In this document: piece by piece, positions 26,676 to 57,700 of the stretch
How positions within the stretch are numbered: position 1 is the stretch's first letter
Layout: every line of letters starts with the position of its first letter
Assembly: GCA_026874595.1 (NCBI GenBank)
Contig: CM049309.1
Span: 54,596,079-54,660,078, forward strand
From: Sipunculus nudus
Lineage: Eukaryota > Annelida > Sipuncula > Golfingiida > Sipunculidae
Length of the DNA: 64,000 nucleotides
Direction: 5' to 3'
Translations under genes and position numbers: made by a program
Notes under the pieces: generated by a model
What the model was told of the DNA's origin: nothing
What the model saw: the letters and a program-made list of their open reading frames with translations, nothing else
The model's database searches: none

Positions 26676-28223
26676 ACAAAGTGACCCATGGGTCATGACG
26701 CTCAGCTGACTAGGAAGACATTCAAAAAGGAATTTTATCTTCTGAATGCCAAAATTTGCAGGCGGAATCCACTGTAGCAATTAAAATTCTTCAAAATCAA
26801 CCAGAAGAAAAGTTTCATGAAAATATGTCCAGCCGTTCCCGTGAAATCTAGCCTTTTTGTGTGCAGTCAGCTGAGCTAAAAATGACCATAAAGGACATCC
26901 CTGGATGTCAAGATAGAAGATTCTACGTCCAACAGTAAAGTCTTACTGTCTGAGTGCTGTAATATAGGTCACCATGACGCAATAACAGGTTTCCATGAAG
27001 ACGGCCCCGGACTTTCATGCATACTACATTGGTACATTCTAGGGCTAGCAGACACAGTTTGTGAACCCTCTGACTCTCTGGGTGCTCAAAATCATGTTTT
27101 TGGCCCATAGGTCGCAAAATATAGGTCACCATGACCTAATTTCAGGTTTCCAAGGAGATTTGCTTAAGACCTCCCGGGATGTAGATTTGGAAGTTTCCAG
27201 GTCTAACGGTTTCAATTTGTACCCTTTTAAAACTTCTTCATCTGAAGGTCTCAAAATTAGAGAGAAAAATCCGTTAAATAATTAAAAAAATACAGGTGGC
27301 GTCGCAAGTCTTCAGGAAATGATAGATACTCAATGATTAATATGAATTGAAAAATCATGGCAAACATTGCATTAGCTATTCAGATACTGGAGCTTTTGTA
27401 TCACATTTTAATTTCTTGGGTTTAATTTTTAGCTTCAGTTTTCCAATGAGATTTTATGGACCTCCATGGCCGTACCGTCAGAAGATTCTTGGTCTGGCGG
27501 ATACATTTTGTGCCCCATCTGACTTGGCGCCCAAAATCATGTTTTCAGCTTGTAGTTCGAAAATATAGGTTACCATGATCTAAATTCAGGTTTCCAATGA
27601 GTTTTTATGGACCACTATGGGTGTAATGTCAGGAGATTCTAGGCCTAGCTGAGACAATTTGTGCCCAATCTGACTGCCGGGTGCTTAAAATCAGGTTTGC
27701 AAAATGTAGGTCACCATGACATAATTTCAAGTTTGTTTGGAGATGGCCTAGGACCTCCCTTGATGTTGAGTTAGAAGTTTCAAGGTCTAAAGGTAACGAT
27801 TCGTGCTCTGTTAATGGACAAACTGCTTCATCTAAATTAAAAAAGAAATGAGAGAACAAATGCGTAAAAATTAGAAAAATACAGGTGGCGCCACGAGTCT
27901 TCAGGAAATGATGAATCACTCAATGATAAATATACATTGAAAGAATCATGGTATTCAATGCATTAGTTATTCAGATATTGGAGCTTTTGTATCAAATCTA
28001 TTATAATTCTGGGGGATACTATCGAGCCCCGTAGCTCGGAGGATATAGGTCACAATGACCTATTTTCAGGTTTCCAGGGAGATTTTTATGGACCTCTATG
28101 GGTTATTAGATAGAAGGTCCTAGGTCCAGCATTTACGATTGGGCGCTTTTAACGGACAGACGGACGACGGATAAAGAGCGATCGCTATAGCTCAGATGAC
28201 TATCAGTCAGCTGAGCTAAAAAA
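26676..28223 (+). mobile_element. element A, copy 1 (Helentron/HINE-like)
   Basis: It begins ACAAAGTGACCCATGGGTCA, containing a 14-base palindrome, then GCTCAGCTGAC. It ends with a 'gacggacgacgg' microsatellite and GTCAGCTGAGC followed by TAAAA. The 11-bp GCTCAGCTGAC and GTCAGCTGAGC are exact inverses. The core is degenerate tandem units with phrases such as 'ataggtcaccatgacctaat', 'aggtttccaaggaga' and 'gatttgtgccctgtt'. There is no coding capacity. The plan resembles non-autonomous Helentron-associated elements such as bivalve 'pearl'. Confidence 0.6.
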
Positions 28224-29548
28224 ACAGCTTAAATGAATAAGTGAATATTGATATCTTGAAAAAAAAGGACTATTACAGAACTATAGTACACATACCGGTT
28301 TAAGCTAGAAACAATCAGATGAGCAGATCCGGACTAATTTGTCCTTGTGCTTTGATATAATATACCATCATTATTTAATTCGAACAATTAGTAATTTTTA
28401 CTCGAACAAATAGTAAAGGTGAAGATTCCCATTTATTTTGTCAAATTTTCAATGTCAATCATGGCTACAAATCACTCTCTGCTCAAGAAATTCCCATTGC
28501 TCACGTTTCCAAAAATCTTCTTTTATGCGAAGGTATTAGTCATTCCGTCAGTGCGCTATAAACTTTTTCATCAGACGATGCTCATAAGATACCTCTGAAA
28601 CCCAAGGGCCTCTTTGGGATCCTCAAATTTTTCAAGATGGGGAACACTGTATTCTTCCGACTGACAGGCTTCGTCCAAGTATATGGTCCACATGCCGTTC
28701 ACAGAAGAGTCTTTGTTTTTTTAATCCTCATGGTTACATGGTTTATACATAATAAGTCCTCATGTTTTCCTGTGTTAAAGGTGTTTTTATGCTTTATTCT
28801 TACTATGATGAAAACAAATTTCAAATATCACAATTCAGTGTGATGTTACCGTCATATTCAATGAGGTTTCTCATTTCCATTTCTTCACTTTAAATGGTAC
28901 GTTAAAAATTTTCCAAAAACTTATTCCTCTGTCGGTTTGTTGGTCCTCCCAATAATTGTATCTTTTCAAAACCAAAACTATTAACCAGGCGTGAAAAGTA
29001 GTCTTTTTATTACAAAGTCTCAGTTTTAACCAACCTTTCTCTACGGTTAATTCTTTTCTTTGCAAATTTAAGATATTTTCTCCATCGTTCCAATGATGGG
29101 GTGTCGAAATCTTAGAATGTCTTCCTTCTATGTAGAGTTGTCAGAAATATTTGACAAGCATATAAAATATGAATGTATCATAACATACCACGTTTGTGTT
29201 TATTGCATGTTCTTTTTTATAACTTTAATACGTTATTGTTTGGACAGAAGAACATCTGAAGAGCAACCAGGCTATTTTTTTAATCCTGTTAAATGTATAT
29301 GTTTAAACTATGATGACGATTGCAGGATAAAAAACGTACGATAATCGATTATAAATCGATTATATTATGTACCTTCTATATTACCGTGAAATTGCTATAA
29401 ACATAATGACCGAATAAAGCTAATCTGACTTCTAAATCACGCTGAAAAGTTAGGGTGACGGTTGTCGACACTTATTTGTTGCATGAGGTTCAGTTTTAAT
29501 ACTGTTCGCTATTTTGTGCAAACTTTTCCTTATATCTCTGACAGAACT
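28224..29548. other. intergenic, possible relic of a coding sequence on the minus strand
   Basis: On the minus strand two stretches read like protein. One is 29143-28871, about 89 codons, including QRKELTVEKGWLKLRL. The other is around 28713-28588, including MWTIYLDEACQSEEYSV and ending at a GTATCT donor-like site. They are in different frames with stops between. An AATAAA lies at about 28438 on that strand. I do not recognise the family; a decayed retrocopy or chance are both possible. Confidence 0.2.
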
Positions 29549-29747: not shown

Positions 29748-29821
29748 GAACTATACTTTTTTATCAGGATAACATGACTTTTTTGGATGTGCATCTGTAA
29801 TGATTTGTGATGGATTTGCAA

Positions 29822-32800
29822 ACAAGGCCTACAGCCTAATTCGAACCTGTGCAATGCGATATACATCAGGTATAATACTTCCATGTCGGACCATCATTTT
29901 ACAAGTACACGTGTGACATGCATATATGTACAATGCAAATACTAAACATTTTACTGAGTATAACTGAGTATAAGCACCAATTACACAAACGTCACTCCTG
30001 AAACACTGGCATGGATATACACAACACAAAAATGATTGTAGGCGGAGACACTAGTCTTGTGCACGAGAAAGCCATCGAAGATGTATGGACATGCAAAATA
30101 TCAGGCAAATACTTCAAACCACGAGCTATGTGCCCAGATGCATGGACCCAATAAACAATTGTTGATGGCGCCAAAAGTCTTGTATACAATAAAACTATCC
30201 GAGATGTATGGACATGCAATTTCAGACTGATATGTCAAATCCCTCCTGAGACAGGAGCATACACTGTGAAAAAATAATTAGGTGGCGAAATCGGTCTTGC
30301 ATACGACAAAGCTATCCGAGAAGTATACATTAGCGTAATTTCAGGCATATATACCAAATCCCTCCTTAAAATAGGCAGGGACATACACTGTGCAAAAACC
30401 ATTGTAGGTGGCGACAACAATCTTGTATACGAGAAAGCAACCAGATGCATGGACAGACCAAAATTTCATTCAGATACATCAAACTTCTCTTGAGTCAGGT
30501 GCACCAAGCTTAGCTGAGACAACTAATTTTCCCGAGTCAAGCGAAATTAATTGGTAGCTACAGCTACTGCACTGAGTGAACTCTTGACCAGCACCTGGAT
30601 ACAATGAGTGAACTCTTGATCTGTATCCAGTTGCACTGAGTGAACTCTTGACCTGTTGCAAAATCTGATACAGTTGGCAGTCTGCTAAAATTATAAAAAT
30701 ATCCAGACTGAAACTTGGTCTGTTCGTAAATCTGTTTACACGTTGAAAGACTGGCTACAATGCTTTTTTTAAGCTGATTTATTCATAAAAATTTTTCACA
30801 ACAGGTTTAGGATAATAACAGATGCCTGTTGAAAGCTAAATCAAAATACAGATATATTTGATTTATGGATTCATCTTACACAAAAGTTTAAGATAGACAC
30901 CAGTTATTTATGTTGCCTGTACAGCCCTGCTTATATACCCACAGAGCTCAGTCTGTATATACAATAAATCAACTAGCTTTGTTTACCAAAGTATATCACA
31001 GTCCAATAATGTGGCCCAAAGACAAAGGTTCAATAATTCAGCCAAAAATCATCTGAGTTAACTTGAACAAGGCCACCTAACAGTCATTTTTGTACAATGA
31101 TACAGAATTTCAAACAGGAGTTTTGAAGATCTGCATCCCCTCAGTCTGATATAGGCTAACTTGGCCACAAGACCAACTTCAGCTTTCTATGACTAAAACA
31201 AGTGACCCAGGGGTCATGACGCTCAGCTGACCAGGAAGACATTGACAAAAGTAATTTTATCATCTGAATGTCAAATTTGAATGAAATACTTTTTCAAAAA
31301 TTTGACCTTTTGTATAAAATCATCCAATATTCATTGGGGTACTATGGAGCTCTGTAGCATGAAGGATATGGGTAACAGACACCTATTTTCAAGGTTTACA
31401 AGATGACTTTTCAGGGGTCTCCCAGCATGTCAAAAAATAAAATTCTAGGTCCAGTTATTATGATTTGTGCCCTGTTAACAAATCCAAATGTTTATTCTGG
31501 GGGGTATTTGAAAGCCGCATAGGATGAAGGATATGGGTAACAGAGATGTAATTTCAGGTGCACAAGGAGACTTTTCAGGGGCCTCCCAGCATATCAAGAA
31601 AGGAGATTCTAGGTCAAGTCATTATAATTTGTGCTCTGTTAACAGATGACCAAATCTTTATTCTGGTGAGTACTTCGGAGCCCCAGAGCATGAAGGATAT
31701 GGGTAACAGGGACCTTATTTCGGGTTTCCATGTAGACCTTTTATGGGCTTCCCTGGAGGTGAGGACAGAAGATTCTAGGTCCAGTCATTATGATTTGTGC
31801 CCTGTTAATATATGACCAAATCTTTATTCTGGGGGGTACTTCAGAGCCCCATAGCTCACAGAATATGGGTAACTGGGACCTTATTTCGGGTTTCCATGTA
31901 GACCTTTTATGGGCTTCCCTGGAGGTGAGGACAGAAGATTCTAGGTCCAGTCATTATGATTTGTGCCCTGTTTACAGATGACCAAATGTTTAAAGATCAC
32001 AAAAGGTAGAGAAAAAAAATCGTAAAAAATAAAAAAAACATAGGTGGCGCCACCAATCTCCAGAAATTGATGAAACGCTCAATGATCAATATCCATGCAA
32101 AAAAATCATGGTGATTTATGCATTAGTTGTTCAGATACTTGAGCTTTTGTATTAAATTTTGCATTATTCTGGGGGGTACTTCAGAACCCCATAGCTCGAA
32201 GAATATAGGTCACAGTGACCTAATTTCAGGTTTACAAGGAGAATTTCCATAGACCTCCCAGGATTTCAAGTAAGAAGATTCCCGGTCTAGCGGTTACGAT
32301 TTGTGCCCTGTTAACAGACAGACGCCTGGATGGCCGGACGGACGACGGACAAAAGGTGATCCCTACAGCTCAGATGACTTTCAGTCAGCTGAGCTAAAAA
32401 TGGAAAAAATACAGGTGGCGCCACCAGAATGCAGAAACTGATGAAACATTTCATGATCAATATCCATGCAAAGAATCATGGTGATCAATATAATAATTGT
32501 TCAGATACTTGAGCTTTTGTATCAAATTTTCCATTATTCTGGGGCGTACTTCGCAGCCCCATAGCTCAGAGGTTATGGGTAACAGAGACCTAATTTCAAG
32601 TTTTTAAGGAAACTTTTCATGGGCCTCTCAGCATGTCAAGAGAGAAGATTCTAGGTCCAGTTGTTACGATTTGTGCCATGTTAACAGATGACCGCATCTT
32701 ATGAGGTCTCAAAAATAGAGAAAAAAAATCGTAAAAATAAAAAAAAAAAAAATACAGGTGGCGCCATCATACTGCAGAAACTGATGACACATTCCATGAT

Positions 32801-35800
32801 CAATAACCATGCAAAGGATCATGGTGATCACTGCAATAGTTATTTAGATACTTGAGCTTTTGTATCAAATTGTCCATTATTCTGAGGGATACTTCAGATG
32901 ACTTACAGTCAGCTGAGCTAAAAACACTTAATGGTCAATATCCATGCAAAGAATCATGATGATCTCCGTATAAGTTGTTCAGATACTTCAGCTTTTGTAT
33001 CAAATTGTCCATTATTCTGAGGGATACTTCAGAGTCCTATAGCTTGAAGGATATGGGTAACAGAGACCTAATTTCAAGTTTCCACAGGCACTCTTCATGG
33101 GCCTCCTTGCATGACAAGAATGAAGTTTCTAGGTCCAGTTGTTGCAATTTGTACCCTCTTGATAGATAACATAGGTGGCGCCACCAGTCTGCAGGAACTG
33201 ATGGAACATCTCATGATCAATAGTTATGCCACAAATCATGACCATCATTCAAGTAGTTAATGAGATATTGAAGTTTTTGTATGAAATTTTTTACTTTTCT
33301 TGGGGGTACTTTAGGGCTCCATAGCTCGAAGAATATGGGTAACAGAGACCTAATTTTGGTTTCCATGGAGACTTTTCATAGGTCTCTCAGTGTGTCGAGA
33401 ATGAAGATTCTAGGTCCAGTCGTTATGATTTGTGCCACGTTAACAGATGACAGCATCCGTAAAGGTCTCAAAAATAGAGGAAAAAATCGTAAAAAATCAA
33501 ACGATACAGGTGGCGCCACAAGTCTGCAGGAACTGATGGAACATTTCATAATCAATATGTATGCCAAAAATCATGACCATCAGTGATGTAGTTATTGAGA
33601 TATTGAAGTTTTTGTATGAAATTTTTGACTACTCGGGGGGGGGGGGGGGGTACTTTGGGGCCCCATAGCTCGAAGGATATGGTTAACAGAGACCTAATTT
33701 CTGGTGTCCAAGGATATTTTTCATGGACCTCTCAGTGTGTCAAGAATGAAGATTCTGGGTCCAGTCGTTACGATTTGTGCCATGCTAACAGATGACAGCA
33801 TCCTTAAAGGTCTCAAAAATAGAGGAAAAAATCGTAAAAAATCGAACAATAAAGGTGGCACCACCAGTCTGCAGGAAGTGATGACACATCTCATGATCAA
33901 TAGTTATGCCACAAATCATGACCATCATTCAAGTAGTTAATGAGATATTGAAGTTTTTGTATGAAAGTTTTTACTTTTCTTGGGGGTACTTTGGGGCTCC
34001 ATAGCTCGAAGAATATGGGTAACAGAGACCTAATTTCTGGTTTCCATGGAGACTTTTCATAGGTCTCTCAGTGTGTCAAGAATGAAGATTCTAGGTCCAG
34101 TCTTTACGATTTGTGCCTTGTTAACAGATGTTTACATTTTGAAAGATCTCAAAAATAGAGAAAAAAATTCGTAAAAAATTGAACGATACAGGTGGCGCCA
34201 CCAGTCTGCAGGAAGTGATGGAACATCTCATGATCAATATGTATGACAAAAATCATGACCATCAGTCAAGTATTTAATGAGATATTGAAGTTTTTGTTTG
34301 AAATTTTTACTTTTCTGGGGGGTAGTTTGGGAACCCATAGCTGGAAGGATATGGGTAACAGAGACCTAATTTCTGGTTTCCATGGAGACTTTTCATAGGT
34401 CTCTCAGTGTGTCGAGAATGAATATTCTAAGTCCAGTCATTACGATTTGTGCCTTGTTAACAGATGTTCACATTTTTAAAGGTCTCAAAAATAGAGAAAA
34501 AATTCGTAAAAAATCGATAAAATGAGATATTGAAGTTTTTGTATGAAATTTTGGACTTTTCTGGGGGGTACTTTGGGGCCCCATAGCTCGAAGGATATGG
34601 GTAACAGAGACCTAATTTCTGGTTTCCAAGGAGATTTTTCATGGACCTCCCAGGATGTCAAGTAAGAAGATTCCAGTTCTAGCGATAACGATTTGTGCCT
34701 GGTTAACGGACAGACAGACGGAAAGACAGACGGACAGACAGACAGACAGACGGACGACGGACAAAGAGTGATCGCTATAGCTCAGATGACTTTCAGTCAG
34801 CTGAGCTAAAAATCAATGAACAAGATCTATTTTTATACAAACTAGAGACCATTACAGCAGGATAACCTTTGCGAAGAATTAAACCATTCTTTTGACAATT
34901 TCATCATAAAACATTTCAAATGCTGTGGCTGAAAGAGGCTATAATTACGAGTTTTTCCCCGTAAAAATCAGCTTGTTGTAGGTGGCGCCACAAAACATAA
35001 ATTTCAAATATGAGTCATGCGACCAACATTTGCACAACACTTGGTGATTCTAGTTCCTGTAGTTTCTAAGATTGTAATGTTAGTATACTTACTTGGCCAA
35101 ATGACTTAGTTCTAATTCCTGTAACTTGGCCAAAATTAATCGAACCCTAACCATTCGAGCAAACTTGAGAGGTCATCTCTGGGATCATTTCTGTGAAATT
35201 TGGCTAAACGATTATGACGGAGAAGATTTTGAAAGGTTTTATAGCTCCCCCCCCCCCCCCCGTAAAATGTAGGTTGATGCAGGTGGCGCCACAAAAAGCT
35301 CAATTCCATAACAATTGACATGTGACTGATTTTTGCATAAAATTTTGGTATGCTAGCTCTTGTTATTCCTGAGAAATTATGGGTAAATGTAGTGATGACC
35401 GAAGACCCCCCAATAAAAAAGGTTGATGCAGGTGGCGCCACCAATACATCTATTCCAAATATGACTCATATGGTCAACATTTGCATAAAAATTTGGTGAT
35501 AATAGCTCCAGCCGTTTCTGAGATTGTAATTTAGTATGCTTTTTATGGTAAATTACTAAGTTCAGTGTCCAGTAAATCAGCCAAATATCACCGAACTGAA
35601 ACCATTCGAACAAACTTAAGAAAGATTATTTCTGGGATTATTTCTGTGAAATATTGAACAATTTTGCTGGACGGTTTCGGAGATGAAGATTTGTAAAGTT
35701 TTTTTTTTGCTTTTCCCTGTTAATTCTAAATCAAAGCAGACAGTCAAAAAATAAGCTCAATATGATAGCCTTACAAATGTGACTGATTTGTCCATAAAAT

Positions 35801-35907
35801 TTGGCGCTGCTAGCTGTGACGGGTTTTGAATTAGCATGGGTAAACGTACGAACGATGGTGGACGGATGACGCTGCGCCATGGCAAAAGCTCCCAATTTCG
35901 CTAAAAA
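29822..35907 (+). mobile_element. element B, copy 1, split by a nested element A
   Basis: It starts ACAAGGCCTACAGCCTAATT then CGAACCTGTG. Its tandem core of about 120-bp units has a GGTGGCG-type palindrome at about 30047, 30161, 30280 and 30404. A segment with 'ctgcactgagtgaactcttg' repeats follows. The element is then interrupted at 31198-34812 by element A. It resumes with 'aggtggcgccac' units at 34980, 35279 and 35430 and ends with 'ggacgacgg'-like sequence and TTTCGCTAAAAA. The uninterrupted copy at 53569-57062 has the same text on both sides of the insertion point. Confidence 0.6.
31198..34812 (+). mobile_element. element A, copy 2, nested in element B
   Basis: Left end ACAAGTGACCCAGGGGTCA, then GCTCAGCTGACC; right end GTCAGCTGAGCTAAAAA. 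The core has about 335-346-bp tandem units, with successive 'ggtggcgccacc' boxes at 33173, 33508, 33854 and 34189. Two further right-end sequences occur inside, at about 32382-32400 and 32905-32924, so the copy carries three 3' ends. A 16-G run is at 33635-33650. The many open frames here are repeat shadows. Confidence 0.65.
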
Positions 35908-36356: not shown

Positions 36357-37999
36357 ACAAGTGACACATGGTTCATGACGCTCAGCTGGATCTGACATGT
36401 ATACAGGTAATGCATGTGTATCGATGTTATGACCTGGTAAAAATATTTGTTAAGGAACCTTGAACAATGGGTAGAATGACTTTCAGAGTGCTCAAATCAT
36501 GTTTTTTTTCATATTCCTTAGAAATAGGAGACAGCAAGAAAATTTCACTAGGAGCTCCCCAGATGCCAAGTTAGAAGTTTCTACGTCGACCTGCTATGAC
36601 TGCTTGGGTATTCAAATCATTTTGTTTCACATAGCTCACATAATATACGTCAAAGTGACCTTATTTTGGATGTCAAAGGAGACATTACATGTACAATGAC
36701 CCCCATTATTTTAAGAAAGACATTTCTGAAGCCAACAGTTGAGATTTGTGACCTGTCTAACTGTCTGTGTGTTCAAAATTATGTTTCCTGCTAATAGCTC
36801 AAAGAATATAGGTCACAGTGATCTAGTTTCAGGATTCAGAGGAGACTTGCCAAACACCTCCCTTGATATCATTTGAGAAGGTACTAGGTCCAAATGTTAA
36901 TTTTTGTGCCATGCCTGACTGTCTAGGTGCCCATAAGCATATTTTTGGCCAGTTGCTTGAAAAATATAGGTCACCATGGCCTACTTTGAGGTTTCAAAGG
37001 TGATCTGGCCAGGACCTCTGTGGATGTGGTGTTATAAGAATCTAGGCCGAACAATTACAATTTGTGTCCTGTCTTTCTGTTTGTTCAAAATCAAGTTTCT
37101 GGCCAGTTGCTCGGGGAATATAGGTCATCATGGCCTAATTTCAGGTTTCCAAGAAAATGTCACCAAGACTTCCCTTGATATTACATAAGAAGATTCTAGG
37201 TCTAAGGGATCCCGTTTGTGCACATGTGACTTCCAGGGTGCTCAAACCATGTTTTTTTCCCTACAACTCCCTGAGAGTCACAATAGAAACTTGAAGACCA
37301 AGTGGATACATTTTGTGCCCCAGGTGTGTTTATGGGTGCTCAGAATCATGTTTTCAGCTAGTATCTGGCAGAGTATATGTCATCATGACCTAATTTCAGG
37401 TTTCCGAGGAGATTTGCCAAGGAACTCCTTGGCTGTACAGTTAAATGTTTCTAGGTCTAACGGATGCGATTTGTGCCCTTTCTCACTATCACGGTGCTCA
37501 AAGTCATGTTTTTGGCCAGTCATTTGAATAATATAGGTCATCATGACCTAGTACATGGTTTATGAGAAAATTTGCCCTGGAACATAGAAGATTAAAGGCG
37601 TAACGGATACTATTTGAGCCCATCTGACTTTCAGGGTGCCCAAATAATTTTCTCCAATAGTCTTCAGGAACTGATGAAGCACTTTTTGACCAATAGATAT
37701 GGAAAGAATCATGGCAATCAATGCATTAGTTATTCAGATATTTTGTATCAAATTTGTAATTATTCTTGGGGGTTATTTCGAGCCCCATAGCTAGGGGGAT
37801 ACAGATTACAGTAACCTAATTTCTGGTTTCCAAGGAGATTTTTCATGGACCTCTGTGGGTTTGCAGTCAGAAATTTCTAGGTCCAGAGATAACGATCTGG
37901 CCCTGTTAATGGACGATCGGACAGATAGACAGACGGAGGGACGATGGACAAAGAGTGATCTCTATAGCCTTGATGACTTTCAGTCAGATGGGCTAAAAA
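36357..37999 (+). mobile_element. element A, copy 3
   Basis: Left end ACAAGTGACACATGGTTCATG then GCTCAGCTGG. The right end has a GACAGACGGAGG-type microsatellite and CAGTCAGATGGGCTAAAAA. The core consists of degenerate tandem units with 'ataggtcatcatgacctaat' and 'aggtttccaaggaga'. It is more diverged than copies 1 and 2. Confidence 0.55.
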
Positions 38000-41240: not shown

Positions 41241-41393
41241 TCTATTATAATGACAAAAATATCAAATGCTGCTCGACAGAAAAGAGGTTACAGTTTTTGT
41301 TAAATCAGTGCACTTGAAAATGTATAACCTAATGCATTACCCATTTGGCTTATTTTGTTCTTTAGTCTGTCTTGCATGTAGCCTTATAGTTTC

Positions 41394-42770: not shown

Positions 42771-45700
42771 CTAAAAGAAAAAAAATTTACTGTTGCTGGT
42801 TTCACATTCATGAGCTTAGATTTCTTATGATTTTCACATTTTTAATGTTTCGTGAAGGTTTCATTTTCCTAATTTCAGGATATAGTATCCAATACAGTAT
42901 ATTCATTAAATAAAGACGCAAGGGGATATCTAATGAGTAGAAATTGCTTCTACATTATTGGTAGATAAAATAAAAGGTCTGATATTATCAATAAAACAAG
43001 TCTTTGATTTGGAGAGAACATAAAATATGTTGTTATTATTACAAGTATCAATTTTTTTACCTGTGACTCTGCAGAAATGGATAACTAAAGTTTTTAAGGT
43101 ATTAGTTGATGAGGCTAGGCAGTATGATGTGTAGGTTGGGCTTCTTATTCAAACAGGTTTTACTATGATGATTATGTCCATTTTGTGAACATTGTTAATT
43201 AGAAACCCTAATTTGTTTATTATTTAAGTTTATTAAGCTTACAACAAAGTACACATTGATTGTATGATAATATTAATGTCATTTTATAAAAGCATAAAAA
43301 TCATACTACCACAACTACCATATAAAGCCCCCCAAATATTAACTAGCATATGGGTAGTCAACAAGCGACTACATGTATCCACCAAAATCAGAGTAATATC
43401 AGTGAAGTGAGGCATGGATTGAGTGGCATGGGGAAATAGAGTGAGATGTGTTACATATTAGCATGGATGTCTGCAATGTAAACATATTTGAAGGTGGTGC
43501 CATCTGTCATAAAATCAAGAAAGCTATCCAGGATGTATACGCATGCCAAATTTCAGGTGAATATGTCAAACCACTGCCGGGATATGAGTAATTTTAACCC
43601 TTCAACCCGGGGATGATGAACAGATCAACGCTGTGCAAAAATGGTTGCAGTGGTGCCCCCAGTCTCTTGTATGATAAAGAGCTATGTGAGATCTAAACAC
43701 ATGCAAAATTTCTGGAAGATTTGTCAAACCAGTCCGGAGATATTCGCATGGATGTCTGCAGCATGAACATGAATTTAGGTGGCGCCACCTGTCATAAAAT
43801 CAACAAAACTATCCAGGATGTATAGGCATGCCAAATTTCAGGTGAATTAGTCAAACCACTGCAGAGATATGAGTGATTTTAACCCAAGGCAGACACACAG
43901 ATGGACTCTGCACAAAATTGTTGCAGTTGGCGCCACCAGTTTTTTGTATGATATAAAGCTACCCAAAAGCTACACTGGTGCAAAATTTCAGCCTGATCTA
44001 TCAAACGAGTCCGAAGATATGTGGTTTAATGTGTAAACAAAAACGCACAAAAGGACACACTGCATAGAGGAAAGGTCAGAGGTCAATGCCAAACAGTTAG
44101 GCACCAGTTCACATGTGACATGATACCTGGGTTAAGTTTCGGAAAAATCAGTCCAGTAGTCTCAGAGGAGTTCTCCAGAAACAAATATGGCAGGGGCGGC
44201 AGAAGAACCCAGTCAAAAACATAGTACCCGCAAAACTTTGTTTTGGCTGATACCATTATAGGTTTCACAGACACCCCCACCTACATCACTTCAAACCCCT
44301 TGTCTTTATCTTTTTTACAGCCTAACAGAACAGTCTCATGTTGTAACCTGTTACCTATACATCATCTTATGTTTTCATAACTGGTCATCATTTCTATGTC
44401 AATGCAGCCTGCCAGATGTCCCATTGAGAGACAAACTGACAATGTACAGCTGACAGACAAATACTCATCTCACAGAAAACCTAACAGATGCTCAGCTCAC
44501 AGACAGGATGACAGATGCTGAGCTCACAGACAGCCTAACTGATGCCTAGCTCTCAGAAAGCCTTATAGGTGCCCAGCTGGATGATAAAGGAAACCCAACG
44601 GACAGACAGCCTGACAAATGTCAAACTTACAGAAAGCCTGACTGATGCCCGGCTCAGAGACAGCCTTAGAGATACTCAGCTCACAGACAGCCTTACAGAT
44701 GCCCAGTTGGGCTGACAGACATGATGAAAGATGCCCAGCTGATAGACAGCCTGACAGATGTCTAACTTACAGAAAGCCTGACTGATGCCAAGCTCAGAGA
44801 CAGCCTTAAAGATACCCAGCTCACAGCCAGCCTGACAGATGTCCAACTCACAGACAAATAAAGAGATGCCCAGCTCAGAGACAGATTAACAGATGCCAAA
44901 GTGATGGACAGCCTCATAGATGCCCAGTTCACAGACAACCTAACAGAGGCCAAGGTGAAGGACGACCTGACAGATGCCTATCTGGGCTGACAGACTGGAT
45001 GAAGAATACCAAGCTGACAGACAGCCTGACAGGTGCCAGCTCACAGAGAGCCTAATAGAAGCCCAGGTGATGGACAACCTAATAGATGCCCAGTTCACAG
45101 ACAACCTGACAGATGCCCAGCTCACACACAGCCCAACAGAGGCCTAGGTGATGGACCACCTGACAAATGCCTAGGTGGGATGACAGATGGGATAAAAGAT
45201 ACCCAGCTTACAGACAAGATTACAGGTGCCCAGCTCACAGATGGAGTAACAGATGCCCAGCTCACAAACAGCCTGACAGATACCCAGCCTGACAGTTGCA
45301 TGCCGAGCTCACAAACAGCCTGACAGATGGTGAGCATGTATGCATGTTATATATAGTTATTAGTTAGCTGTATACAGGTTGAATGTACTTACAGGTAATG
45401 GATCTCCCTGGAAAGCTCCCTGGACCAGCAAGAACATGGGGTACTGAAGCAGACTTACTACAGCTGCTACAGACATGGCCAGACCAAAGAGTCTCCCAAA
45501 ATGTTGAGGCTGGAAACTGCAAGTACATATGCACTGACTTAAAAACCTGTTCATGGTTTAATTAAAGGAAAACAGTCACTTTGATGGCTTAAGGAAAGGA
45601 AAACAAACTACCGAGTAGTCTAATGGCCAATGAAAGTGAAATAAGAAATCTGATGGCTACCTGGCAGTTAAACAAAACAGTGTAATTTTTTATAAAGTAA

Positions 45701-48700
45701 AACAAAAGAGTGTGAATTTTTAGAAAGTAAAAACAGTGTGATGGCTTATTGACAGTAAAACAGAAGATGGTAACAACACCTGCCAGACATGATTAACAGT
45801 TTCTCCTGTTTAGGACAAATCCTGGTCTCATGTGATAGAAAAAAACTTGCCTAACTCATTATATATTTAATCTATTTTATCCAAAATCACTGCATATCAG
45901 GTAAATAGCATTGAAATTCTTATTTTGCCACTCGAACTCATTCTACAATACTCTAGGATTATATTACATGTTACCATAAAAAATATATTTATCCTATCAA
46001 GAGACCTTAATGCTGGATATTATGAGCAAAAGATTACTTTTTCAGATATCAGTCACTTACGCTTTTGCAATGAATGCAGTATTTGGTCCATACAGAAAAG
46101 CACGGTGAACTACATGCAATGCAAAAGATGCATACTGGACTTCAATAACAGGAATGCATGTCATCACTGTCAGGAGTACACCGACTGTTGTGTTCAACAG
46201 GAATGACAGCACACACATCTCCACCTTAGCTGTAAAACGGAAGTCAACATGAATACACACACAGAGCACAACCATAGCTGTAGAGTTCATTAGGAAACAA
46301 GTGACCCATGGGTCATGACACTCAGCCAACTGACAAGTTGACAATATGTCCTTGCATAAGGAACTAAATAAGATAATGCAGGTAGCATGCATCATCATTC
46401 ATGCAAATTAGGTTCATTTCATTAAGACGCATAAGCACACAAAATTTTATGACAATCCATTCACCCATTCCTGAGGAATCTCGCAATTTTAGTGTATTCT
46501 GCATTATTTCTGGGGCACTCAAACATGGCCACTAATTCTGAGTTCCATAGCTTTGATGATATTGGTAACAGAGACCTAGATTCTGGTTCCTTTAGAGACT
46601 TCTCATGGGCCTACATTGATGTCAAGTTGGAAGATTTGAGGTCCAGTGATTATGATCTGTGCCCTGTTAACAGAAAACCATCAGGTCTCAAAAATAGAGG
46701 AAATAATATGTAAAAAATATAAATATTCCAGGTTGCACCACCAGTTTGCAGGAACTAATGAAACACTCCATGATCAATATGCATGATAAAAGAATCACGG
46801 TGATCAATGCATTAGTTTTTCAGATAATTAAGCTTTTGTATTAAATTCTGCATTATTCTGGGGGGGGGGGGGGGGATACTTAGGAGCACCATAGCTTGGA
46901 GTATATGGGTAACAGAGACCTAATTTAGGGTTTCCTTGGAGACTTTTCATGGACCTGCAGGATGTCAAGTTTAAAGATTCTAGGTCTAGTAATGATGATT
47001 TGTGCCTTGTTGACACATAACCACATCTTTACGGTTTCAAAAATAGAAGAAAAAATGTGTAAAAAAATATGCAGGTAATGCAACCAGTCTGCAGGAACTG
47101 ATGGAACAGTCCATGATCAATATTCGTGCAAAGAATCTTGGTGATCAATGCATTATTTGTTCAGATACTTGAGCTATTGTATCAAATTTTTCATTATTCG
47201 TGGGGGTTATTCAGAGCCCATAGCACAAAGATATAGGTAACAGAGACCTAATTCTCGGTTTCCAAGGAGATTTTTAATGGACCGCTCTAGATATAAAATT
47301 AGAAGATCTGAGGATCCAGCGGTTATGATTTGTGCCCTGTTAACGGACAGACATCAGACAGATGACCAACAAAGGGTGATTGTTCAAGCTCAGATGACTT
47401 ACAGTCATCTGAGCTAAAAAAAAACACACAGATCCCACCTCATGCACAAGCCCACATACGTCTCCCCCTCAAAAGAACAGTTCTACATTTATAACATCAC
47501 AAACATCAATATATAAGCTATAGTGTCACAACATGCACAACACTGCATGTATCCTGCACACATCTCTACCACAGCTCTAGTTATCAAACACATATCCACT
47601 GTAACTGTAATGTTTAACATGTTCAGCACCACACACCTCCCACCTCAATTATAGAGCTCAACATTCACAGCACCACACACATCTCTACCGCATTTACCTC
47701 CACCAAAGCTTCAACATGTTCACCATACAGCTGTAGAGTTCAACATACACAACACTGAACACATCCCTAGCTCAGCTGTGGAGTTCAACATGCACAACAC
47801 CACACAGGCACACACATCTCTACCTTAGCTATAAAACATCAAGATGATGTGTGAGGTGCAGTTAAATACAGGAACAAGCTTTGATAAAGTAGCAATACTT
47901 TAAGATTTATGGTATATATTTATTTAATTTCTTCTAACACAATTCAAAACTTAAATAAAACTACCACAGCTTTGGCATTCAACATGCACAATAATGCACA
48001 CATCCCTACCTTAGCTATAGAGTTCAACATGCACAAATACTGCACACATCTCTACCACAGCTGCTGCATTAACATGCACTGATCATCCCTAGCATGCACA
48101 TTAAGGATGCCTTTCCATACATGTGGATTTTCACCTGCGCGGGACCCTCGCGGGTCCCCGCATTTAGAGAGTCCCTTTCCATATGTGCGGGTTCCCCGCT
48201 TGCGGGTGACCTGTTAGTTGGGATAAACACATGCACTAATACTTAAAATTTCTCAAATTTAAGTGTAATGTGTTAAGAAAAAATTCAGTGAAAACATTTA
48301 TACTAACTGACCGAAGTGGATTAATATCGTATCTTACCAGCCAGGCTTGAATGGTTGCTATTTCCTGTCACACTCTAACTAAAGCTGGCCCTGGGCCATA
48401 TCGCAATGAAGACTGGTCGTATATTTTTGATGCAGTCTAATAAGCTCTATCAGCTCCTTTTTTTCAAAGACAAGGACACATGCCTACTACACATGCCTGC
48501 TACTGATTGATACATGCAGCATCCGCATGCGGGCCCTTGCAGAAATCCAACACTGCTGGATCCGCATGCGGGACCCATGCAGGGTCCCACATGTATGGAA
48601 AGGGGACAATGATAACACACTTGTTGGATTTCAACCTTGCAGGACCTGCACGGTATCCGCGCGTTGGGCCCGCATTTAATGAAAGGCACCCTAAAACACT

Positions 48701-51700
48701 CATATCCATTGCATATTCAGTATGCACAACACTGCACACATCCCTAGCATGCAAAACAAAAACACACATATCCATCCCATATTCAGTATGCACAACACTG
48801 CACATATCTCTAGCATGCACAACAAAACACACATATCCATCCCATTTTCAGTATGCACAACACTGCACACATCTCTAGCACGCACAACAAAACACACATA
48901 TCCATCACATGTTCAGTACGCACAACACTACAGACATCTCTAACATGGAAAACATCACACACCTTATTTTACAGTTCAACATGTACAGTTCCGTGAACTG
49001 CAATATTGTCTTCTACCTGTGTATGCTGTGTAGTACTCTGACAGTGTTTCAATGACATGTACAATGCAGCAGATTTGACATGGTATAATACCTGTATGAA
49101 CTGTGTATTACAGGAGATCTGACATGGTATAATACCTGTATGAACTGTGTATTACAGGAGATCTGACATGGTATAATACCTGTATGAACTGTGTATTACA
49201 GGATCTGACATGGTATAATACCTGTATAAACTGTGTATTACAGGAGATCTGACATGGTATAATACCTGTATGAACTGTGTATTACAGGAGATCTGACATG
49301 GTATAATACCTGTATGAACTGTGTATTACAGGAGATCTGACATGGTATAATACCTGTATGAACTGTGTATTACAGGAGATCTGACATGGTATAATACCTG
49401 TATGAACTGTGTATTACAGGAGATCTGACATGGTATAATACCTGTATGAACTGTGTATTACAGGAGATCTGACATGGTATAATACCTGTATGAACTGTGT
49501 ATTACAGGAGATCTGACATGGTATAATACCTGTATGAACTGTGTATTACAGGAGATCTGACATGGTATAATACCTGTATGAACTGTGTATTACAGGAGAT
49601 CTGACATGGTATCATACCTATATGAACTGTGTATTACAGGAGATCTGACATGGTATCATACCTATATGAACTGTGTATTACAGGAGATCTGACATGGTAT
49701 CATACCTATATGTGCAGCCTCAGCTGAGACTTTTTTCTTCCTGTCCATCAGCCGACCACTCAGGGGAGCCAAGAAGATGCCGAGGAATTGTAAGGAGGCA
49801 TACACAGATGTATATTTACTCACTGAAACAAGACAAAATATTATGACCATATATAAAATTATACTTATTAACTGAAAGAAACAGATATTACTTGCTTAAA
49901 AAAATAAGTTCTTATAAATGTTATATTAAAGGATCCCTCACTGAACCAAACCCTAACTCACATTGAAAGAGATATAATAAATTGCTTGATACTGATGTTA
50001 TCTTAAATTTACTTGAAACTACATCAGACGTATCCACATATAATATTTCATTGAGGAGATATAGATAGGTATCTATTATATAGATAGGTATCTATTATAT
50101 ACCAAAGAAAACTGAATAATTCATTTGGATGTTCATGTGACAAGTATTTTCCACCACATGCAACAAACAGACTTTTATCACAACATGTATTCCGTTATAC
50201 ACACACCTAACAGATCTCAGCAGCAATGTCTGTGACTTACTCACCAATAGCCTTATTCCCTCTGGCTAATCTTGTCAGTGATGGGTTCAGCATTCCTACA
50301 TAACTCCAGCTCCGGAAACGGTGACAAGTCAACCACACAACATCCAGTATGTATAATGCAGACAATACAGATTCTTTCAATGTTGGTGGTTCCTCATTGC
50401 CACCCGTTTGACCATCTGAAGGAGAGCCATTTTTCTGATGTGTTTCTGGTTTACTACTTTCATTTGTTACTGTGGTGCTATTCACTCCATTCAGTGAGAT
50501 TTTACCAGGCTCTTGAAGTGGGACCATCTCCATTTCCTTCACAGAGTCATACTGACCAACATCTTTCAACATTTCTTTTTCTGTCTCATCTACATTGACT
50601 ATATTTCCACTCTTTTTGGATCTATTTCGGCCACACAGAGGGAGTGTGTACCCTTCTGGTAGAGGCTGAGGGATGTTTCCCTTGGGTAGAAAGAAGAACG
50701 TGCTAAACACACATATTGAAAAAGCTCCCGTCAGAAACAGGAAGGACCAGCGGATAGGAATCCCTGCTTCAAATGCCCACTGAAACACAATTAACTTAGA
50801 TTTTATATTGCATATTGGCATTCAAGAAAGCATCATCACTCTCACCCAACAGACCAGCTTCAAAATACAACAATATATAAAATTTTTAATATCTTTCAAA
50901 CTCCTGCAGTTACTGTATATTTATCATAATTTGAGTTTACATAAATACACATGTTCTTGCATTTAGGTTATCCATTTGCCTTTCTTGTCTGAGGTCATCC
51001 AAAACTATTCTGGTTACCACTATGTTTGGCAGATTAGAATTATTGGTCAAGTAGAAGAATTTACTATAATAAACTTAGTCATTTGTGAATAAATTATACA
51101 ATAAACAAGGCCTACAGGCCTAATGCGAACCTGTGCATTGGGAAATACACCAGGTATAATGCTTCAATGCTGGACCATTACTTCTCATGTATATGGACAA
51201 TGCAAGTACTAAACATTTAAAATAAGAAACAATTACACAAACATCACTGCTGAAATTCTGGCATGGGTGCATACAACACAAAACAGATTGTAGCTGGCAC
51301 CACCATGTAGTCTTGTACAAGACAAAGCTATCAGAGATATACACATATGCCAATTTTCAGACTGATATATCGAACCCCTCCTGAGAAATAAGCAGGGACA
51401 CACACTGTGCAAAAATTATTGTAGGCAGCACCACTAGTCTTGTATTCAACAAAGCTATTCGATATGTATAAATATGCCCAATTTCAGGCTGATATATCAA
51501 ATTCCTCTGTAGAAATAAGCAGGCACATACACTGTGCAAAAGTCAATGTACGTGGCACCACCTGTCTTGTAAATGAGAATACCATCAAAGACGCATAGAC
51601 AGGTCAAAATATCAGTCCAATACATCAAACTTCCCCAGAGTTTGATGCACTGGGCTGACAAGGCTAAGGTGAGTAAGGCAGTTGCCCCTGAGTGACCTGT

Positions 51701-54700
51701 GACAAAAAGCTACTGCACTGAGTGAACTCTTGACCTGCACCTGGCTAGACTGAGTGAACTTTTAACCTGTACCTGGCTGCACTGAGTGAACTCTTGACCT
51801 GTTGCATAATCTGACACATTTGGCAGTCTGCCAAAGCTATAAATAGATTCAGGCTGAACTTTGGTGCCAAATATGATGCAGTGAACAGTCTGCAAAGCTA
51901 TAAATAGAAAGCAGCTACTGCACTGAGTGAACTCTTGACCTATACCTGGCTGCACTTCTTCCAATCCTGGCACTGTGCAAAAACTATTTATAGAGCTGAC
52001 ATCATCTTGGCTAATGGCCAACATCAAGGCACTGGCAATCTGCCAATGGTAAACCAAGTGCTGCCATCTGAACACAAAAGTGGTCCCTACTTGAAATAAC
52101 TTTGAAATTTATTTTCCTAATACAAAATGCTTTTCAGCTGACTTTTTATAAAAAAGAAATCAGGAATCTAGGTAAAATTATTACGGATGCATACTGAATG
52201 CAAAATTAAAATACAGATATATCTCACTGATGGCAAATTCTTGAATTAAGTTGAGTAGGGATACCAATAATTTATGATCCACGTACAGTTGTCTTTATAT
52301 AGCCACAGAGAGCTGAATATCCATGATTGTAACATTGCCTGGTATGATGAATAACTTAAAACATAAATCTAAATTATTTAAAAGCTTTTAAAAAAACTTT
52401 CTTGTCAATATTAACCAAAGATAACCTGAAATCTTAATGTCTAGTGGCATGATGTAATAGATGCTGATAAACTGGTGCCAGGCTAGATTAACAGCATCAC
52501 ACAGCTAAGATATATGGTAAAATGACTCAATTCAATCACCATAATTCAGCCAAAAATTATTCATGTTGAACCATTAATGACAATTATTATAAGAATTATT
52601 GTAGGAATTATTCTTGTAAAATATTTAACAAACTGGCTTCAGTGGCATCAGTCGAAAAACGTTTCGCAGGTTTATAACTCATATAGGATGATACAGCAAA
52701 CTGGCTAAGTTCAGCTTCCTATTACTCAGCCAAAAAGCACTGAACCAAAACCATTTCAAAAAATTGAATTATCAACATCTAAGGATAATTAATGTGTGAG
52801 ATTTAAGAATTTGGCCCAGTGGTTTTTGAGAAGAAGATCTTTGTAGCAACTGAGCTAAAATGGTCTGTAATGGCCTATGACTAAATTCAGCTTTCCATAA
52901 CTTAGCCAAAAGTCACTGAAAAGAGACCATTTTAACAAACTTCAGAAAGCACTACCCTAGGATCATTTCTGTGCAATATTAAACATTTTGGCCTTATGGT
53001 TTCAGAGAAGAAGTTTTTTGTAGCCCTCAGTGTGATACAGGCATTGATGACCCTGTACAAAAAAGGCTGATGCAGGTGGCGCCACCAATACCTCAATTTC
53101 AGATATGACCTATGTGACCAACATGGGCATAAAATTTGGTGACGGTAGCTACAGCCATTTTGAGATTTAAATTTTAATATGCTTTTTTGCACAGTTAACA
53201 AACTTCAACCTCCTGTATCTCGGCAAAAAATCTCCAAACTGGAACCATTCGAACAAACTTGAGAAAGACTGTTCCAGGGATCATTTCTGTGAAATATTGG
53301 ACAATTTGGCAGGACATTTTCGGAGAAGAAGATTTTTAAAGCTTTTTTAGCTTTTCCCCTATAAAATCTAAGAAAATGCTGTTAGGAAAAAAATAAACAA
53401 AATCTGATAAAGTTTTTTGGATGACTGATTATTTGCAAAAAATTTGGTGATGCTAGCTCCTGCCGTTTTAGAGATAGCTATGGTTAATGTACAGACAACA
53501 CACGACGCACGACGGACGTTGCTGCACCATAGCATAAGCTCACAGGTTCGCTAAAAAACAAATTATAGACAAGGCCTACAGGCCTAATGCAAACCTGTGC
53601 ACTGGGAAATACACCAGGTATAATGCTTCAATGCTGGACCATTACTTCTCATGTATATGAACAATGCAAGTACTAAACATTTTGAATAAGAAACAATTGC
53701 ACAAACATCACTGCTGAAATTCTGGCATAGGTGCACACAACACAAAAATGATTGTAGCTGGCACCACCAGCCTTGTATTCAAAGAAGCTATCAGAGATAT
53801 ATACATATGCCCAATTTCAGACTGATCTATCAAACCCCTCCTGAAAAATAAGCAGGGACACACACTATGCAAAAATTATTGTAGGTGGCACCACCAGTCT
53901 TGTATACGACAAGTATACGATAATTAAAATACGATAGGTATAAATATGCCCAATTTCAGGATGATATATCAAATTCCTCTATAGAAATAAGCAGGCACAA
54001 AAGTCACACACTGCGCAAATGTCACTGTAGGTGGTGACACCTGTCTTGTGAACGAGAAACCCATCAAAGAGACATAGACAGGTCAAATATTAGGCCAATA
54101 CATCAAACTTACCTTAAGTCTGACGCATGGGGCTGACCACGCTAAGGTGAGAAAGGCAGTTGCCCCGAGTGAACTGTGACAAATTTGAGCGCTGCACTGA
54201 GTGAACTCATGACCTGCACCTGGCTAGACTGGGTGAACCTTTGACCTGTACCTGGCTGCACTGAGTGAACTCTTGACCTGTTGCCTAATCTGATACAGCT
54301 GGCAGTCTGCCAAAGCTATAAATAGATTGGCTCCACATGCAGCCCTGAGGGGCATGACACCCATGAGGTGATCACATGGTGCCCATGAGGTGTTCACATG
54401 TCACCCATGAGGGGATCACATGCCTTGTGCTTGGCTGCACTGACTGAACTTTTAACCTATATCTGGCTGCACTGAATGAACTCGTCATCTATTGCCATAT
54501 CTGAAACAGTTGGAAGTTTCTTAACCTATGTCAATATACAGACACAATCTTGGCCTGTTGGCAAATCTGTTTACACAAACTGAAAGACTTTGGCTAAAAT
54601 GCTTTTTTTCAAGCTGAAATATTCATAAACTTTTTATCAAAATATCTAGAAAAATAAAAGATTCAGTTCTTTCATTGTTAAGGGTCCAATTATTCTGCCA

Positions 54701-57700
54701 AAAATCATTCAAGTAAACTTGACCAAAGGCCACCTAAGAATAATTTTTGTGCCATGTAACAGAAGTTATAATTGAAACAATAATTTTGTAGAAGAACAGT
54801 ATTGCAGTCCTAAGTTTGAGTTAGACATAATAATGGCCATAAGACCAACTTAAGTTTTTCTGATATGATTGAAAGAACCATGTCCTACGATAATTCTTTT
54901 GAAAAATTGAACGATTCAACTTGACAGTTTCATCATAAACATTTTAAGCTGAAAGAGGCTAAAATTATGAGGTTTTTGCCCATAATAAACAGGTCAATGT
55001 AGGTGGCACATCAAAATCTGCAACTTCAAATATGAGTCATGTGACCAACATTTGCACAATACTTGGAAATGCTAGCTTCTGTCATTTCTGAGATAACTAT
55101 GTCAGTATGCTTACTTGGCCAAATGACCGTTCAAATTAGTTTAACTCCACTAAAATTCATCAAATGCAAACCATTTGAACAAACTTGAGAGTGCTTGCCT
55201 CTGGGATCATTTCTGTAAAATACTGAACAATTTGGCTGGACCGTTTACAAGAAGACTTTTAAAGGTTTTTCAGCTTTTCCCCTATAAAATCTAAGTAAAT
55301 GCAGATAGCAAAAAACATAAGCTGCATCCCACAACATTTGATATGTGACAGATAATTGCATAAAACCTGGGGATGGTAGCTCCTGCAATTCCTGAGAAAT
55401 TATGGGTTGATATACAGATGACCAATGACCCCCGTACAAAAAAAGGTCAATGCAGGTGGAGCCACCAAAACCTGAATTTCATATATGACTCATGTGACCA
55501 ACACTGGCATAAAATTTGGTGATGATAGCTCTGGCCCTTTCTGAGATTTTCATTTTAGTATGGTTTTTTGGACAGATGACTAGGTTCAATTTCCTGTAAT
55601 TCAGCCAAAATTCACAGAACTTAAACCATTTGAACAAATTTGAGAGAGATGGTATAAAAGATTATTTCTGTGAAATATTGAACAAATTGGCTTGACAGTT
55701 TCAGAGGAGAAGATTTTTAAAGTTTTTTTAGCTTTTTCTCTATAAAATCTAAGAAAATGCAGATTTTTTACAGATGGCTAATTTTTTGCATTAAATTTCA
55801 TGATGCTAGCTCCAGTTGTTTTCGAAATAGTATGGGTTAACGTATACCTGTGATTGTAAACATTACCTGGAATGAGGAATATTTAAAATCATAAATCTAC
55901 ATTTTTAAAAGTTTTTAAAAAACATTCTTGCCAATATTAACCAAAGATAACCTGAAATCTAAATGTCTGGAGGCATGGTTCCAGGCTATATATATCTGCT
56001 TCACACAGCTAACATATATGGTAAAATGACTCAATTCAATCTTTATTATTCAGCCAAAATTCATTCTTTGGAACCATTAAAGACAATTATTATAAGAATT
56101 ATTCAAGGGATTATTCTTGTAAAATATTAAACAAATTGGCCTCAGTAGCGTCAGTCAAAAAACGTTTTGCAGGTTTATAACTCATATGGAAAAATAAAGC
56201 AAAATGGCTAAGTTAAGCTTCCAATAACTCAGCCAAAAATCACTAAACCAAAACCATTTCAAAAACTTGAATTATCAACATCTAAGGATATATAATTAAT
56301 GTGTTGGACTTAAGAATTTGGCCCAGTGGTTTTTGAGAAGAAGATCTTTGTAGCAACTGAGCTAAAATGGGCTGTTATGGCATATGACTAAATTCAGCTT
56401 CCAATAACTCAGCCAAAAGTCACTTAACTGAGACCATTTGAACAAACTTCAGAAAGCACTACCCTAAGATCATTTCTGTGTGATATTAAACAATTTGGCC
56501 AAATGGTTTCAGAGAAGATTTTTGTAGCTGTCAGTATGATATGGGCACTGATGACCCCCGTTCAAAAAAGGCCGATGCAGGTGGCGCCACCAATACCTGA
56601 GTTTCAGACATGACTCATATGACCAACATTGGCATAAAATTTGGTGATGACAGCTCCAGCCGTTTCTAAGATGGTAATTTTAGTATGCTTTTTTGGACAG
56701 ATGACTAAGTTCAACTACCTGTAACTCGGCAAAAAATCACCGAACTTAAACCATTCGAACAAACTTGAGAGAGATTGTTTCAGGGATCATTTCTGTGAAA
56801 TATTGGACGATTTGGCTGAACAATTTCGGAGAAGAAGATTTTTAAAGTTTTTTTTGCTTTTCTCTATAAAATCTAAGAAAATGCAGTTAGCCAAAAAATA
56901 AGCAAAATCCGATAGAGTTTTTTAGATTTTAATTTCTTGCAGAAAATTTCTTGATGCTAACTCTTGCCATTTTCAAGATAGTATGGGTTAACATACAGAC
57001 GACAGATGACGGCCGACGGACGACGCCACACCATCGCATAAGCTCACAGGTTCGCTAATAAACCAATATAATAAAATATATTTTTAATCAACTTGAAAAA
57101 ATGTGTAAGTACTTGAATAACAGAAAATCTTCTTTATAAATATCAGCTCTAACTATCACATCTCCATGCTGACAATATCCCTCTGGTGCATGAGAGTTAA
57201 AATGCTTGTAAACTGGTGTCTTTAGATAAGAATAAAACTATGCTAATGAAAAAAAAAATTTCAGGAAAAGCAAATTTTGTTACTCACTTTTACAAGAATT
57301 AGAATGAATGCACTGGAGTCGTACGCCCCACAGTACAGTGAGATGATGGTTGAGCCTTTCTCTGGGATGAGACGAGATAACTGCATGTTGGTCATGAGGA
57401 TGAAGTAACCACCATAACACAGCAGCAGGAGACCAGGGTACAGCAGCAGTCCCAGCGCTGATAGAAACACATGCAAATGAAGCAGGTACAGCCAGTATGG
57501 CCTAAACACAGCAATGATGACAGCAAGTGGAGAAAGAAACCACATTAAATACTAGCTGCTCTTAGTTTTTACATTAAACTCCTTTTGTTAAGTTCAATAT
57601 GAAAGTAAGAAAGTGAGCATAACATGACTATTAAAAATATAAAACTTACCTGGTGTTGAAAATGCAATCAACAAAGTGCCCAGTACATATGTTATGCTGA

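Follow-up and report, generated by a model that had tools for sequence, protein, structure and literature searches.

Helentrons are rolling-circle elements in which a parent encoding Rep, helicase and endonuclease shares its ends with non-autonomous copies, in which families are delimited by subterminal inverted repeats (subTIRs) of at least 11 bp, and in which insertion takes place within TT (PMC4067079, Thomas et al. 2014). The closest described counterparts of the elements considered here are the non-autonomous Helentrons (Helentron-associated interspersed elements, HINEs) of the oyster Crassostrea gigas, where unrelated families with one layout make up group 3 (PMC7492417). That layout (Cg_HINE) has on its left a 5' subTIR, a complementary inverted repeat and a microsatellite, then an array, and on its right a 3' subTIR and a palindrome, and 49% of the satellite-like arrays detected in the oyster lie in tandem-repeat clusters of HINEs (PMC7492417). 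None of the ten autonomous elements in that 2020 study could be related to the HINEs, and the relation was called unresolved by its authors (PMC7492417). Here we describe two element families, A and B, in a stretch of 64,000 bases (38.6% G+C) from the 1.43-Gb genome of the sipunculan Sipunculus nudus (assembly GCA_026874595.1, contig CM049309.1, positions 54,596,079 to 54,660,078), called the window below, together with a putative autonomous Helentron of the same genome that carries the ends and the satellite array of family A.

Layout and orientation of families A and B

We consider it very probable that A and B are two HINE families on the minus strand of the window, and that A is mobilised by a Helentron of 15-16 kb from the same genome. 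On the element strand, the reverse complement of the sequence as numbered, family A opens with TTTTA, GCTCAGCTGAC (the subTIR), TGAAA, GTCATCTGAGC (an inverted repeat of the subTIR) and a GTCC/GTCT microsatellite, continues with satellite units of 166 and 336 bp, and closes with GTCAGCTGAGC, GTCA, the palindrome TGACCCATGGGTCA and CTTGT. Both families run TTTTAGC, an 11-bp subTIR, a GTCC-type microsatellite adjoining the 5' module, a satellite array (127-bp units in the B copy B1), the inverted subTIR, a palindrome, CTTGT and a T-rich site, and so have the order of parts as well as the short terminal words TTTTAGC and CTTGT in common. The subTIR pair is exact over at least 11 bp in A2 (GCTCAGCTGAC/GTCAGCTGAGC) and in B1 (GCGAACCTGTG/CACAGGTTCGC), and in A and B the palindrome follows the 3' subTIR near the 3' terminus; at nine Helentron loci described below it stands downstream of the coding frame. 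Canonical Helitrons begin with TC, end with CTRR and insert between A and T; the ends seen here differ from these, with TTTTAGC and CTTGT standing in T-rich places.

The words on which a preliminary description of the window had built the two families are found as it gave them: TGACCCATGGGTCA at 26682 and 46302, AGGCCTACAGGCCT at 51108 and 53572, GCTCAGCTGAC at 26700, 31221 and 59327, GTCAGCTGAGC at 26866, 28206, 32384, 32908, 34796 and 62040, GCGAACCTGTG at 51125, CACAGGTTCGC at 53541 and 57045, and GACGGACGACGG at 28159, 32337 and 34749. The exceptions are copy A1, which starts with CAAAG instead of ACAAG, copy B2, whose left word has one mismatch (GCAAACCTGTG) and whose right end is GCTAATAA, and copies A3, A4 and the third B copy, in which the words are imperfect. 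The layout itself is beyond chance, since a de novo scan for it returned 36 rows in the real window, while each of 40 Markov-1 simulations returned 0-6 (mean 1.9), and the ends recur through the genome against near-zero controls. Families A and B account for 15 of the 36 rows, without exception on the minus strand; a different inverted-repeat element, at 13153-16131, gives 17 more, and the remaining four look like chance. That description had also suggested Helentron-like rolling-circle elements, and rightly so, given that the layout of A agrees in every part with that of published HINEs (PMC7492417) and comes close to that of Helentrons in general (PMC4067079), and that the predicted parent of A carries Rep and helicase. 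The direction in which it read the elements has to be reversed, because the palindrome that it placed at the 5' end lies downstream of the Rep/helicase frame and is thus the 3' terminator. The orientation, which any experiment on nicking or termination needs, is now settled.

Beyond the minus-strand direction, two further features had gone unremarked: the A copy at 31198-34811 lies inside a B element, and the cores of A and B share GGTGGCGCCACC, with eight exact occurrences in the window against 0.0006 expected. Within two mismatches, this palindrome has 24 sites between 27884 and 56591 of the window, in A, in B and in a further repeat at 43.5-44 kb. A text search of the literature for GGTGGCGCCACC gave six papers, and transposons figure in the title of none of them.

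A predicted autonomous partner of family A

With 150 of 195 candidates scored, the genome yields at least 143 matches to the Rep domain Helitron_like_N (PF14214) with E ≤0.001. Some of them lie in open frames of more than 2,200 aa. The same search in 14 control genomes gave no match. An autonomous partner inside the window is unlikely, because none of the 143 listed Rep matches falls there and because a Pfam search of 17 of its frames (at least 96 aa; 91 frames have at least 80 aa) found no Helitron domain. We inspected the sequence downstream of Rep at 14 of the 143 matches, and nine of these loci have an A-like 3' end. Three of them (C17:35.63, C5:42.91 and C10:71.60 Mb) show one or two mismatches to the 34-base A 3' end; C7:71.19 Mb, its long duplicate at C7:70.98 Mb, and C3:10.58 Mb show four or five; C8:22.66 and C6:5.95 Mb show five, and C8:29.80 Mb shows eight. 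In the stretches examined at the other five (C13:9.11, C11:50.385, C7:31.58, C11:50.96 and C3:57.29 Mb) no A-like 3' end was found.

Both boundaries can be placed at C17, C5 and C10. Over the last 1.9-2.2 kb the three copies agree at about 98% identity, and the matching stops two or three bases past the A 3' end, with unrelated sequence beyond; upstream, their long alignments stand at 96-98%. Each begins with the 16-base TTTTAGCTCAGCTGAC of the A 5' end without a mismatch, followed by hairpin and microsatellite, and the outer flanks are again unrelated, so that the end coordinates give lengths of 14,888 bp (C17), 16,131 bp (C5) and 15,731 bp (C10). It might be argued that such 3' ends lie near Rep genes by chance, as 5'-truncated HINEs that inserted downstream of unrelated Helitron genes, and A ends are indeed common, with about one exact palindrome per 130 kb. 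Since homology stops at the A 3' end in three loci, with an exact A 5' end on the opposite side, and since C17 has no A 5' end between its frame and its 3' end, we think a chance neighbourhood extremely improbable.

The C17 frame (2,342 aa; L041:3-3527, minus strand), which was searched in two pieces, matches an N-terminal domain of the herpes-tegument, deubiquitinase-like kind (PF04843, 3.8e-12), DUF6570, Helitron_like_N (2e-27) and PIF1 (3.2e-23). Judged from these domain matches, family A has a predicted parent with Rep, a PIF1 helicase, an endonuclease-like region and the same ends; the preliminary description had proposed looking for an autonomous element that codes for Rep/helicase and has the 11-bp word beside TAAAA, and in the case of A this search has found its object. 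Where a subfamily differs in its ends, it too consists of Helentrons, and these carry the altered ends. At C10:71.60 Mb (L044), a 3' end of a sister subfamily follows about a dozen bases after the A-type 3' end. The genome also holds another Helentron family, with an OTU domain (PF02338) before the Rep domain; we considered the members at C11:50.385 Mb and C7:31.58 Mb (99% identical) as partners and set them aside, as the stretches examined there have no A or B 3' end and their weak 5'-like matches (four or five mismatches) were taken as chance. A search of IMG/VR with a 27-base A 5' end pattern gave no matches.

The three Helentrons have more than ends in common with family A. In each, the stretch that separates the 5' end from the coding region holds the array of A2, at 92.2% (C17), 93.5% (C5) and 94.6% (C10) identity over 1149-1183 bp, and in all three this array includes the internal second 5' end of A2 (32366-32399 in the window). 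The number of 337-bp units between the outer and the inner 5' end varies, from two in C17 to three in C10, three in C5 and about six less regular ones in A2. We had considered the internal 5' end of A2 as a separate tandem event and dropped this idea, because the same junction recurs at C17, C5 and C10.

From what is known of Helitrons, Rep would nick the A 5' end between TTTT and AGC, next to the subTIR, the helicase would peel off one strand, and copying would terminate at the 3' subTIR and palindrome, and the copy would then be joined at a T-T step. By-products of this process may include the satellite arrays and the additional 5' ends in the interior, arising where the 3' terminator is lost from a circular template and replication runs round; replication past a lost terminator would give several 5' ends before one 3' end, which would explain A1, A2 and the Helentrons. 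Tentatively, we raise the possibility that the autonomous Helentron itself makes the satellite, having two working 5' ends ahead of a single 3' end, with rolling-circle copying between the two gaining and losing 337-bp units, and that the parent spreads the arrays. This idea derives from the varying number of units between the 5' ends and from inner 5' ends that start insertions outside an A array (16 of 20 sampled, of 370 in the genome; see below). Were it true, the parent, and not only its non-autonomous offspring, would generate and spread satellite arrays. With an array placed inside an autonomous element, it can be asked whether rolling-circle replication builds such arrays.

Insertion sites, recognition of the ends and copies in the window

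The A palindrome TGACCCATGGGTCA occurs 10,844 times in the genome against three occurrences of a reversed control, and at four loci that we examined each of the four palindromes belongs to an A 3' end that departs from the 34-base sequence at 0-7 positions. For the exact 31-bp B 3' end the count is 3,875 (1950 + 1925) and for the exact 44-bp inner-type A 5' end 370 (172 + 198), each against none for the control. From the 370 inner-type A 5' ends we took the first 20 of 100 listed, of which four lie in an A-array context and 16 outside. Directly before TTTTAGC, 15 of these 16 have T and one has A, and one of them (L071) lies inside a B-like core (88% over 193 bp). Ten B 3' ends, the first five per strand of the list, were sampled on their 3' flank; the following base is T in nine and A in one. 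Two of them (L081 and L082) are within family-A monomers and a third (L079) is in another repeat, of which the window has an unbroken copy, and the uninterrupted paralogues in the window align with all three from the first or second base past CTTGT. Both kinds of nesting, A within B and B within A, have thus occurred, and at T-rich sites; the flanks of the window copies and of the Helentrons fit such sites as well. For the nesting of A2 in B0, B2 is the one uninterrupted paralogous stretch that covers both flanks (71-75% identity), and at that identity it fixes the junction only to within a few bases. In the sampled copies the ends coincide with the 11-mers, and no copy with boundaries elsewhere was seen. 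At one sampled locus (L078, C1:162352-162532), a second B 5' end of like orientation begins about 45 bp beyond the B 3' end, an arrangement that the window pair B1 and B2 also has.

Several observations weigh against the reading of A and B as HINEs with a Helentron partner for A, and the first of these concern the partner itself. In the C5 and C10 copies, the Rep domain, which falls within about 3 kb in the middle, is known only from its detection by the family search. The endonuclease match in C17 (2e-4) falls below the Pfam cut-off (21.6 against 24.5 bits); a relative on C13, 93% identical to C17 in DNA, passes for Exo_endo_phos_2 (33.9 against 27.4 bits), and this relative has no A end in the 9 kb examined. 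Since the C17 frame departs from the C13 relative near the end of the endonuclease region, the C17 Helentron may be partly defective. A2 matches the Helentron over no more than the last 34 bp before its 3' end, while A3 matches over about 98 bp at 71%; because the sequence just before the 34-bp 3' end differs, A2 is not a plain deletion derivative of the Helentron.

For family B, a B 3' end was found at none of the 14 inspected loci. The ends also fold unevenly. The A 5' end forms a strong hairpin in all three copies folded, of four (z -4.5, -4.4 and -6.0), and the B 5' end has no hairpin like it in the two folded, of three. The A 3' palindrome is no stabler than shuffled sequence in the three copies folded, and the B 3' palindrome is weakly stabler (z -1.9 and -1.2). 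The 3' palindrome covaries weakly: a single pair (A-T to G-C) has changed at both of its positions, in two related sequences out of 15; among 500 shuffles, 4 attain the score and 119 the pair count, and the score of 0.103 is matched by an equally high 0.099 when the partner is slid by one column.

These results bear on the proposal, made in the preliminary description, that one transposition machinery recognises structure, that is, that a single Helentron machinery mobilises A and B alike through hairpins and spacing and not through sequence. The proposal draws on the TTTTAGC, the CTTGT and the order of parts common to both families, and the A-Helentrons do have a B-like segment upstream of their coding region (81% over 86 bp). 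We nevertheless find it unsupported and judge it quite unlikely, because the A partner repeats the A subTIR and palindrome almost letter for letter and not just the layout, because the subfamilies that differ in their ends are Helentrons with altered ends too, because the A 5' hairpin has no counterpart in B, and because A-like 3' ends turned up at nine of the 14 loci and B 3' ends at none. Family-specific recognition of sequence fits better than recognition of structure, and B probably has a Helentron of its own with the subTIR of B.

The flanks supply the remaining points of difficulty. Eleven elements with both flanks (eight from the window and the three Helentrons) were compared within 10 bases of their ends, and a direct repeat longer than 4 bp is absent in ten. 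The C5 Helentron (C5:42.91 Mb; L043, L050) is flanked on both sides by AGTGCG, with Ts between this word and the ends, and flank repeats of at least 4 bp occur in 5 of the 11 elements against 15 of 110 mismatched flank pairs, with no constant length or position. This suggests that there is no target duplication of the usual kind, though it is not proof, and AGTGCG at C5 is either chance or a target duplication. The repeat at C5 and the inverted 11-mers near both ends are what would be expected if these were miniature inverted-repeat elements moved by cut and paste with a DDE transposase, and pearl elements of bivalves were initially filed as miniature inverted-repeat transposable elements (PMC7492417). 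Set against this are the want of a constant-length duplication in the 11 elements, the asymmetry of the ends and an element with both shared ends that codes for Rep and helicase and not for a DDE transposase; we give a cut-and-paste origin next to no credence.

The copies in the window and their parts are collected in Table 1, with element borders taken from a fuzzy scan of the ends and the left part of the third B copy (29822) from blast. The sequence preceding the partial 5' end of A2 at 32890..32923 is 99% like that preceding an inner-type 5' end elsewhere in the genome (L067).

Table 1. Copies of families A and B in the window and the parts of A2 (window coordinates)
Feature	Position	Strand	Remarks
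A1, family A HINE, 1.5 kb	26677..28221	-	3' end 26677, 5' end 28221; second 5' end 26864-26881
A2, family A HINE, 3.6 kb	31198..34811	-	nested in B0; Helentron match over about 1.15 kb of array, 92-95%
A2 5' end	34778..34811	-	TTTTA, subTIR GCTCAGCTGAC and complementary inverted repeat; hairpin -10.6 kcal/mol, z -4.5
A2 microsatellite, GTCC/GTCT on element strand	34706..34763	-	
A2 satellite array, 336-bp unit x 4.0	33173..34517	-	
A2 satellite array, 166-bp unit x 3.8	31355..31992	-	
A2 internal second 5' end	32366..32399	-	also in three putative autonomous Helentrons
A2 third, partial internal 5' end	32890..32923	-	without microsatellite
A2 3' end	31198..31231	-	subTIR GTCAGCTGAGC, GTCA, palindrome (one change) and CTTGT
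A3, diverged family A HINE	36357..37998	-	last 98 bp 71% like Helentron
A4, family A HINE	46297..47419	-	5' end a perfect hairpin with 13-bp stem, z -6.0
Decayed family A copy	59304..62055	-	second 3'-like end at 61018, 8 mismatches
B0, family B element	29822..35906	-	interrupted by A2; right end at 35906
B1, family B HINE, 2.45 kb	51105..53556	-	
B2, family B HINE, 3.5 kb	53569..57060	-	head-to-tail with B1, 12 bp apart

The window has other contents besides. The element at 13153-16131 has frames with RNase H (PF17917) between inverted terminal repeats and resembles a DIRS-type retrotransposon. An open frame of a seven-transmembrane receptor (PF10324, PF00001) lies at 4065-5189 on the minus strand, and more satellite-like arrays, assigned to no element, are found at 39244-41255, 44457-45288 and 48693-49712 (units of 49, 27, 65 and 44 bp).

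Comparison with known systems

Different sequences with identical layout, as the preliminary description put it, is a true account of A and B, but the observation is not new, since unrelated HINE families with one layout were already known in the oyster (PMC7492417). The layout of A and B is thus of a kind already described, and the array-bearing partner is the informative part. What is new is a predicted autonomous partner of A, tied to it through the two ends, the boundaries at three loci and the array. In the accessible parts of an oyster assembly paper (PMC7992393) and of PMC8268682 and PMC12628747, no partner of a HINE is named. We found no title or opening of an abstract claiming an autonomous HINE partner in a mollusc, in a search that covered few full texts and left out most subscription papers.

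The Cg_HINE elements of the oyster agree with A and B in subTIRs of 11-12 bp, a GTCY/GTCC microsatellite, satellite units of 140-180 bp, a 3' subTIR followed by a palindrome, and T-rich sites (PMC7492417). The inverted repeat beside the 5' subTIR is present in A and absent in B; it occurs in DINE-1 and Cg_HINE, is absent from mite HINEs, and is not required of all HINEs. Cg_HINE remained without a linked autonomous partner, whereas A appears to have one with the same ends and array, and the likeness between the oyster and sipunculan elements is one of description (PMC7492417). The same holds for the pearl elements of bivalves (CvA, CvE, CvG), which differ from each other in sequence, share a structure with core repeats of about 160 bp (PMC11136912, PMC7492417), and have that structure in common with A and B by description. 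Two published primers for BIV160, a satellite related to the pearl elements (PMC5139131), matched A2 no better than shuffles did.

Helentrons, HINEs and DINE-1 as described by Thomas et al. (PMC4067079) have the same relation between the ends of parent and copy as is seen here, where the parents additionally have two 5' ends and a satellite array. In the C17 Helentron the N-terminal domain is of the herpes-tegument kind, unlike the Helentrons of Thomas et al., but such domains have already been described in Helentrons (PMC9741609). Several 5' ends before one 3' end are also a feature of the tandem Helitrons of plants, where they are attributed to a circular template that has lost its terminator (Xiong et al. 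2016, as summarised in PMC12628747); the difference is that here the double 5' end lies inside a putative autonomous Helentron of the animal type, and does so at three dispersed loci.

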